Part shown: positions 9,003 through 21,551 of the stretch, one piece after another
Position numbering within the stretch: the first letter of the stretch is position 1
Layout: every line of letters starts with the position of its first letter
Assembly (NCBI GenBank): GCA_016188625.1
Contig: JACPHL010000285.1
Coordinates: forward strand, 1-28,381
Length of the DNA: 28,381 nucleotides
DNA from: Candidatus Rokuibacteriota bacterium
GTDB lineage: Bacteria; Methylomirabilota; Methylomirabilia; Rokubacteriales; JACPHL01
Reading direction: 5' to 3'
Made by a program: the position numbers and the translations under genes
Notes under the pieces: generated by a model
The model's input: only the letters and a program-made list of their open reading frames with translations
What the model was told of the DNA's origin: nothing
The model's database searches: none

Positions 9003-9090
9003 CCTCCCCCCAAGGTTGTGCCGACGAAGCCGGCGCTCGGAGCGGACCATCCAATCCCCGAACCGAGGGTCCAGAGCGTGCGCGCACACG

Positions 9091-9843
9091 TCAGGCCGCG
9101 CCCAGGGTCTCCAGGACATCGTCGGGGATGTCGAAGTTCGCGTACACCGCCTGGACGTCGTCGAGCTCCTCGAGGGCCTCCACGAGGCGGAGGACGTGCT
9201 GGGCCTCCTTCCCCTCGACCCGGATGGAGGAGAGCGGGACCTGGGTCACCTCGGCCTGCGCGATCGGCACGCCGCGCTCCTCGAGGGCGCGCCGGACGCC
9301 CTCGAGCCCGTCGGGCTCGGCCGTGATCTCGAAGACCCGGTCCACCCGGCGGAGGTCCGTCGCCCCGGCCTCGAGGGCCAGGCCCAGCAGCTCGTCCTCC
9401 GAGACGCGCTCCCCCTCGACCTGGACGACCCCCCTGCGCTCGAACATCCACGCCACGCACCCGACCTCGCCGAGGTTGCCGCCGTGCTTGGCGAAGGCGT
9501 GACGGATCTCGGGGGCGGTGCGGTTCTTGTTGTCGGTCAGGACCTTGACCATGATGGCGACGCCGCCGGGCCCGTACCCCTCATAGGTGACCTCCTCGTA
9601 GGCCTCGCCGGGCAGCTCCCCCGTCCCTTTCTGAATGGCCCGCTTGACGGTGTCCGCGGGCATGTTGGCCGCCTTCGCCGCCTCCAGGGCGGCCTTGAGG
9701 CGCATGTTCCCCTTGGGGTCCCCGCCGCCGACCCGCGCGGCGACCGTGATCTCGCGGATCAGCTTGGAGAAGAGCTTGCCCCGCTCCTGGTCAGTCTTCG
9801 CCTTCTTGCGCTTGATCTGGGCCCACTTGGAATGGCCCGACAT
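9091..9843 (-). CDS. yebC: YebC/PmpR/TACO1 family protein
   Basis: The protein has 250 residues and starts with the family signature MAGHSKWA-like MSGHSKWAQIKRKK. Further motifs are AKAANMPADTVKRAIQKGTGE and EGYGPGGVAIMVKVLTDNKNRT. YebC proteins were long annotated as transcriptional regulators; recent work on the family supports a role in ribosomal translation of difficult (proline-rich) stretches. It is placed first in a unit with ruvCAB, a very common arrangement. The ATG at 9843 has GGAGGTGAG upstream and a good promoter about 35-60 bp away. Confidence 0.96.
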   Translation of the reverse strand: MSGHSKWAQIKRKKAKTDQERGKLFSKLIREITVAARVGGGDPKGNMRLKAALEAAKAANMPADTVKRAIQKGTGELPGEAYEEVTYEGYGPGGVAIMVKVLTDNKNRTAPEIRHAFAKHGGNLGEVGCVAWMFERRGVVQVEGERVSEDELLGLALEAGATDLRRVDRVFEITAEPDGLEGVRRALEERGVPIAQAEVTQVPLSSIRVEGKEAQHVLRLVEALEELDDVQAVYANFDIPDDVLETLGAA

Positions 9844-18712: not shown

Positions 18713-19555
18713 GTGCACGAGCAGTGGCAGCCCCGCTTCCACGACCACCTCTCCTCGAGCTTCCTGGATCTGCTCCGGGCGCGGCACCCCGACCTCCTCC
18801 CGGACCCCCCCCGGCTGCGGGTGGAGGCGGGCCCCGTCCCGGCGGGCCCCGTCCCGGCGGCCCCCGTGGGCACCACCATCCTGGCCCTGAAGTACCGCGA
18901 CGGGGTCCTCATGGCGGGCGACCGGCAGGCCACGGAGGGGTACCAGGTGGCCCACCGCCGGATCGAGAAGATCTACAAGGCCGACGACCACTCGGCCATC
19001 GCCATCGCCGGCGTGGCCGGCCCCAGCCTGGAGATGGCGCGCCTCTTCCAGACCGAGCTGGAGCACTACGAGAAGGTCGAGGGCGAGGGGCTCAGCCTGG
19101 AGGGGAAGGCCAACAAGCTCGCCCAGATGGTCCGCCTGAACCTCCCCGCGGCCCTCCAGGGGTTCATCGTGATCCCCATCTTCGCCGGCTACGACCTCCG
19201 GCGGGGCGAGGGGCGGATCTTCAAGTACGACATCACCGGGGGACGCTATGAGGAGCTGGACCACTACGCCACCGGCTCGGGGGGGAAGGACGCCCGGAAC
19301 GCCCTGAAGCGGCTCTGGCGGCGCGACCTGTCCCGGGAGGACGCGGTCCGGGCCGCGGCGGAGGCCCTGATCGACGCCGCCGAGGAGGACGTCGGGACCG
19401 GGGGGCCGGACCTGGTCAAGGGGATCTTCCCCAGCCTGAAGCTCATCTCGCACGGGGGGTACGAGGAGGTCCCCGAGGACGAGGTGGAGCGGGCCTGTAA
19501 GGTGGTGCTGGACCAACGCCGGGGGGAGGGGCGGCCCCCGGTGGGTGTAGAATAG
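18713..19555 (+). CDS. prcB: 20S proteasome beta subunit
   Basis: PrcB is the proteolytic subunit of the 20S core particle. The protein has 280 residues from a GTG at 18713, with GGAGGG about 6 nt upstream. It has a propeptide of about 53 residues containing a repeated GPVPA, then the autocatalytic cleavage site [10 protein letters not shown], which makes T54 the N-terminal nucleophile. Other family blocks are [26 protein letters not shown] and [18 protein letters not shown]. The active-site lysine is in the expected [16 protein letters not shown] region. It appears fully intact. It is followed 14 nt later by prcA, as in actinobacterial operons. Confidence 0.95.
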
Positions 19556-19569
19556 GGGCCGAGGATCCC

Positions 19570-20259
19570 ATGCCGCTGCCCTACTACGTCTCGCCCGAGC
19601 AGATGATGAAGGACAAGGCGGAGTACGCCCGCAAGGGGATCGCCCGCGGGCGCTCCATCCTCGCCCTCGAGTGCCGGGACGGGATCCTCCTGGTCGCCGA
19701 GAACCCCTCCACCCTGCTGCACAAGATCTCGGAGATCTACGACCGGATCGCCTTCGCGGGGGTGGGGAAGTACAATGAATTCGAGAACCTCCGGATCGCC
19801 GGGGTCCGCCACGCCGACGTCAAGGGGGACATGTAACACCGCGAGGACGTCACGGCCAAGGCCCTGGCCAACGCCTACTCCCAGGCCCTCGGGACGATCT
19901 TCACGGAGGGGGTCAAGCCCTTCGAGGTCGAGGTCCTGGTGGTGGAGATCGGCGAGGGGCCGAACGGCAAGAACGAGATCTACCACATCCTCTACGACGG
20001 GACCATCGAGGACGAGGTCCAGTACGCGGCCATGGGCGGGCAGGCGGAGGAGATCAGCCGGTTCCTCAAGGAGCACTACCGGCCGGGGATGAGCCTGGCC
20101 GAGGTCGTCCAGCTCGGGGTCCGGGCCCTGACCGTCACCCAGAACAAGGCCCTCACCGAGCGCGACCTCGAGGTCGCCGTCCTGGACCGGAACCGCGAGC
20201 GGCGGAAGTTCCGCCGGATCTCCTCCGAGGAGCTCCGCGAGATCCTGGGCCAGGGTTAA
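19570..20259 (+). pseudogene. prcA: 20S proteasome alpha subunit interrupted by one in-frame TAA
   Basis: PrcA forms the outer rings of the 20S core and docks the ATPase. The frame opens at ATG 19570 with [23 protein letters not shown] split by typical alpha-subunit features ([20 protein letters not shown], then [18 protein letters not shown]) and [25 protein letters not shown] follows at 19834-19836, after 88 codons. The same frame continues without interruption for 140 more codons (HREDVTAKALANAYSQALGT ... [18 protein letters not shown]) to the natural stop at 20259. The joined product would be about 229 residues, a normal length. In mycobacterial PrcA a tyrosine (RGYSYDRRDV) stands at the stop position, so a TAC/TAT-to-TAA change explains it. 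The first fragment alone lacks most of the Ntn fold. It could be a true pseudogene, a read-through case or a sequence error. Confidence 0.88.
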
Positions 20260-20263
20260 CATC

Positions 20264-21551
20264 ATGAAGCGCCGGATCTTCGGCCTCGAGAACGAGTACG
20301 GCCTCACCTGCACCCTGAACGGCCAGCGGCGCCTGTCCCCCGACAACGTCGCCCGCTACCTCTTCGAGAAGGTCATCCCGGGGGCCCGCAACGCCAACGT
20401 CTTCCTCGAGAACGGGGCCCGCCTCTACCTCGACACCGGCTTCCACCCTGAGTACGCCACCCCCGAGTGCGACGACATCCTCGAGCTGGTCGCCCACGAC
20501 AAGGCCGGGGAGCGGATCGTCGAGGATCTCCTCCATCAGGCCGAGAAGCGCCTCCGGGAGGATGGGATCTCCGGCAACATCCTCCTCTTCAAGAACAACA
20601 CCGACTCCGCCGGCAACTCCTACGGCTGCCACGAGAACTACCTGGTCTCGCGCTACGTCTCCTTCCAGCGCCTGGCCGAGGCCCTCATCCCCTTCTTCGT
20701 GCCAGCGCGCCCAACACATCTGCCAGGAGATCTCCGGCGCCACCACCTCCTCCCGCTCCATCATCAACACCCGCGACGAGCCCCACGCCGACGCCGAGAA
20801 GTACCGGCGGCTCCACGTCATCGTGGGCGACTCCAACATGTCCGAGTGCGCCACCTACCTCAAGGTGGGGACCACGGCGGTCGTGCTGGACATGATCGAG
20901 GACGGCCACTTCGACCACGACCTCTCGCTGCAGTCCCCGGTCCAGGCCATCCGCGACATCTCCCATGACCCGACCCTCCGGGAGACCATCAAGCTCAAGG
21001 ACGGCCGGGCCATGACGGCCCTCGACATCCAGCGGGAGTACCTCGAGGCGGCCCAGCGCTACTACGACAAGATCGACCCGGACGCCGTGACCACGGACGT
21101 CCTGGACCGCTGGGGGGATCTCCTCGACCGGCTCGCGACCGACCCGATGTCGTGCAGCCGCGAGCTGGACTGGGTCATCAAGAAGGACCTCATCGAGACC
21201 TACATGGCCAAGTACCGCCTCTCCTGGCGGGACCCGCGGGTCTCCCTCATCGACCTCCAGTACCACGACATCCGGCCGGACCGGGGGCTCTACTACGTCC
21301 TCGCCCGCAACGACCTCCTGGAGCGGGTGACCACCGACGAGGCCATCGAGCGGGCCAAACACGTCCCCCCCCAGACCACCCGGGCCCGGCTCCGGGGGGA
21401 GTTCATCCGGCAGGCCAACCTGAAGGGGAAGGACTACCGGGTGGACTGGGTGTACCTCAAGCTCAACGACCCCGAGCGCGAGACCATCCTCTGCAAGGAC
21501 CCCTTCCAGGCCCACGACGACCGCGTCGAGCGCCTGATCCGCTCCTTCTGA
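20264..21551 (+). pseudogene. pafA: Pup ligase PafA with an internal deletion and frameshift
   Basis: PafA attaches Pup to lysines of target proteins. The 5' part (20264-20701, 146 codons) has [16 protein letters not shown] with E9, D57 in [18 protein letters not shown], and [19 protein letters not shown], and ends at LIPFFV. The 3' part continues in another frame from 20703 ([18 protein letters not shown], then [20 protein letters not shown]) to TGA at 21551, ending with the canonical WVYLKLNDPERETILCKDPF and LIRSF. At the joint about 22-25 residues are missing: dop in this window has TRQVFTG...QIS (25 residues) between LMPFLV and QRAD. One leftover C (20702) shifts the frame. The intact length would be about 450, as in mycobacteria. 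The protein is probably non-functional unless the joint is an assembly error. Confidence 0.88.

Follow-up and report, generated by a model that had tools for sequence, protein, structure and literature searches.

A stop codon within the proteasome alpha subunit gene of a Rokubacteriales MAG is probably a local assembly error

We analysed a stretch of 28,381 bases, hereafter the window, which comprises bases 1-28381 of contig C93 in a scaffolded Rokubacteriales MAG (G000; 2.6 Mb, 344 contigs, 84.5% completeness). The window carries a proteasome operon in the order mpa, dop, prcB, prcA, pafA (Table 1). The genes mpa, dop and prcB are open, and an earlier note on this DNA had said as much of prcB and the ATPase, while neither prcA nor pafA reads open in the sequence as given. 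Among the window genes that were checked, no break was found in yebC, ruvA, ruvB, queA, mpa, dop or prcB. One base past the window end the contig enters a 40-N scaffold gap (C93:28382-28421), and it then runs on to position 38641.

Table 1. Genes of the proteasome operon in the window and the lesions located within them.
Feature	Product and state	Position	Strand	Evidence
mpa/arc	proteasomal AAA ATPase, intact, 608 aa	15259..17085	+	TIGR03689, E 1.4e-228
dop	depupylase/deamidase, intact, 498 aa	17153..18649	+	TIGR03688, 619 bits vs cut-off 492
prcB	proteasome beta subunit, intact, GTT active-site motif present	18713..19555	+	TIGR03690, 295 bits; translation
prcA	proteasome alpha subunit, interrupted	19570..20259	+	TIGR03691 matches to both halves
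prcA patch	corrupted patch GAC ATG TAA at the place of conserved Tyr-Ser-Tyr codons	19828..19836	+	alignment with relatives
pafA	Pup ligase, broken	20264..21551	+	TIGR03686: profile 1-144 in the frame of 20264, 169-456 in another frame
pafA junction	junction of 68-bp loss and frameshift	20698..20703	+	alignment with G003

The interruption of prcA had been described as a single in-frame TAA at 19834-19836, and both the stop and the lack of any further internal stop between 19570 and 20259 were confirmed. As written, the frame therefore does not give a full-length open reading frame, and the two parts on either side of the stop each match the TIGR03691 profile with 156.9 bits (profile positions 1-86 and 91-228). 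When the gene was read through the stop, the score rose to 326 bits, which lies above the cut-off. The prediction that a tyrosine belongs at this position was also borne out, every relative read having TAC or TAT there. What did not hold was the description of the change as affecting one base, because the two codons before the TAA are wrong as well. Three consecutive codons, GAC ATG TAA, stand in place of a Tyr-Ser-Tyr that is conserved in 37-38 of the 38 distinct relatives, so that the window reads Gly-Asp-Met-stop where the relatives read Gly-Tyr-Ser-Tyr. At the DNA level the window has GACATGTAA where the nearest relative, G003, has TACTCCTAC, a difference of five bases out of nine. The alignment of the 38 distinct relatives contains 151 prcA columns that are at least 97% conserved, and the window departs from them at ten. 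Three of the ten, at positions 87, 88 and 89, follow directly on one another; four of the others, at 90, 92, 113 and 114, are common to the window and G003 in the DNA alignment. No template for the odd nine bases was found in the window on either strand.

All the relatives come from the same order, and among named records those closest to the window PrcA are Candidatus Rokubacteria. The window shares the gene order of the Rokubacteriales operon, and its PrcA has 87% amino-acid identity to that of G003; the difference is that the relatives have Tyr-Ser-Tyr at the motif whereas the window has a TAA within a corrupted patch. The earlier note had left it to a comparison with relatives whether the stop is shared, and among the genomes compared it is not: no relative in the order or the class has an internal stop in prcA, and none of the more distant same-order and class genomes compared carries the lesion. 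The genome G000 itself has one prcA match only, with 84.5% of the genome represented, and rescue by a second copy was rejected on this basis.

A further lesion, which the earlier note had missed, lies about 0.87 kb downstream of the prcA patch. The gene pafA begins just after prcA, at 20264, and is 68 bp short of its counterpart in G003, with a frameshift at about 20700. Microhomology was considered as the cause of this loss and rejected: the only repeat is one of 7 bp, which does not fit the junction. Some other genomes are also irregular in this part of the operon. In G052 a gap of 16 N falls on the same motif of prcA, and pafA has lost 65 bp close to its start; in G035 pafA is 51 bp shorter, in frame. 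In G005, G021 and G058 the contig breaks off within pafA, at profile positions 414-424, and the match in G040 stops at 414. The idea that contigs break too often across prcA and pafA was rejected, the expectation over 58 genomes being 8 to 16 and the observed number alone not unusual; what stands out is only that breaks recur at pafA 414-424.

Outside the lesions, both broken genes look constrained. In the comparison with G003, dN/dS was about 0.10 in prcA and in pafA, below the values for mpa and dop, and against more distant relatives it was no higher than between intact pairs. Neither relaxed selection nor further lesions of the kind seen in a genuine pseudogene were detected in the two genes, and neither contains further stops. 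Since prcA and pafA are constrained as in the relatives, a real inactivation would need to be very recent.

Comparable lesions were found elsewhere in the same MAG. A LivG-like ABC ATPase gene on C160 contains a TAG and an SsuB/TauB-like ATPase gene on C252 is frameshifted (both PF00005). On C99 another LivG-like ABC ATPase gene of PF00005 is misjoined at an exact 40-bp tandem duplication (bases 9044-9133 of locus L162, the copies lying at 9044 and 9094 of that locus), and the domain is incomplete. At about position 11565 of C143, a FabG gene (PF13561) has lost some 70 bp that include the YxxxK active-site motif, and is frameshifted. By hand count, roughly three of 60 PF00005 genes are damaged in G000, compared with none of the approximately 130 ABC ATPases of G028 and G004, two relatives with better assemblies of 60 contigs each, in which no stop or split was seen. 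Among the matches listed for PF02653, PF13458 and PF00528 in G000, there was no internal stop or split. Lesions are thus spread over unrelated conserved genes and are rarer in better assemblies, with four in the sampled families of G000 and none in G028 and G004. Outside the window, however, some of the damaged genes may be true pseudogenes, which would weaken the case for assembly error. Runs of N were present within six contigs of G000, including the run that starts at C93:28382, as would be expected of a scaffolded assembly prone to local error.

Taken together, the scrambled patch of nine bases, the 68-bp loss in pafA and the similar breaks in other conserved genes of this MAG make a local assembly error in a fragmentary genome the probable origin of the TAA in prcA. 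The N gap and pafA loss in G052, the endings that recur at pafA 414-424, the low dN/dS outside the lesions and the lack of the stop in relatives point the same way. Assembly would fail where strong conservation leaves related species with almost the same sequence, and the break would then be bridged, by assembler or scaffolder, with a consensus unsupported by reads; the organism itself would have a normal Pup-proteasome system. The operon has exact runs of up to 63 nt in common with other species, and we infer that it is difficult to assemble because related species, which may occur together, share such conserved DNA. Local assembly errors without even one supporting read are documented in MAGs, as are false gaps at scaffold joins whose ends are duplicated (Chen et al. 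2020, PMC7111523). In G000, likewise, genes that are otherwise intact contain short corrupted stretches of consensus, and there are N gaps and the false tandem duplication in C99; the documented errors are defined by missing read support, whereas the lesions described here are known from the consensus alone. Counting against an assembly error are the location of both window lesions in one pathway, with the other checked window genes unbroken, and the mostly clean state of the rest of the MAG. The earlier note had offered a recent change, a base error or readthrough, and an error is indeed the best of these options; a single miscalled base does not account for the patch, and readthrough is unsupported, there being no relative with the stop, no conserved signal, and a TAA at the end of the gene. 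Should the TAA prove artefactual, it would illustrate why a pathway that seems to be lost from a MAG has to be backed by reads, above all where the operon is highly conserved.

The same lesions could instead be genuine null mutations of prcA and pafA in a lineage that is losing pupylation and the proteasome, which we regard as unlikely. The best support for such a very recent inactivation is that two independent lesions strike neighbouring genes of the same pathway and spare the other window genes checked. It is also consistent with the absence of a prcA match from 5 of the 36 Rokubacteriales MAGs that are 90% or more complete and no more than 5% contaminated. However, neither gene shows relaxed constraint, mpa, dop, prcB and pup are intact, similar lesions affect unrelated genes of the MAG, and the replacement of nine bases at once would be an unusual mutation. 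Moreover, at least one of the apparent losses elsewhere, that in G005, is a contig ending inside pafA. G005 looks similar to G007, a genome rated 100% complete whose Pup ends in GGQ and which nevertheless has no match to prcA, pafA or dop, through either real loss or a binning gap. It is doubtful that we are looking at a Rokubacteriales lineage at the first step of Pup-proteasome loss, with the alpha subunit and the Pup ligase freshly inactivated and the beta subunit, ATPase, depupylase and Pup kept. Were the inactivation real, a bacterial proteasome pathway would have been caught at the onset of its decay.

A mixture of strains would explain the lesions in another way, with a minority or chimeric haplotype written into the consensus and the main population intact. 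MAGs are population consensuses, and the longest exact runs in common with other species measure 62 nt in prcA and 63 nt in pafA, but the patch is not simply the sequence of another species, because no relative matches it, and we consider a mixture very improbable. Programmed readthrough of the stop, its recoding, or a PrcA split by design is the most far-fetched of the readings and has almost no probability in our estimation. The one point in its favour is that the frame stays open and conserved past the stop. Yet readthrough would need a stop conserved at the same codon, which is found in none of the relatives; conserved residues flanking it are replaced too; the open reading frame listed after the stop in this frame starts at a GTG (19939) well inside the domain; and the deletion in pafA is beyond what readthrough can explain. 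The same gene is also terminated by a TAA at 20257-20259, its normal stop, and an alternative genetic code was rejected for this reason.

The remaining member of the pathway, pup, lies outside the operon; all components (Pup, Dop, PafA, Mpa and PrcBA) are present in G000. Its absence from the operon might be taken for a sign of decay, and this was rejected: a Pup match occurs in all 59 genomes searched, and the copy in G000 is intact on C197. A position outside the proteasome operon was likewise observed in G007 (C202) and G005 (C122), and in these genomes the neighbour of pup encodes a small zinc-ribbon protein resembling FmdB. The Pup of G000 ends in Gly-Gly-Glu, whereas those of G005 and G007 end in GGQ.
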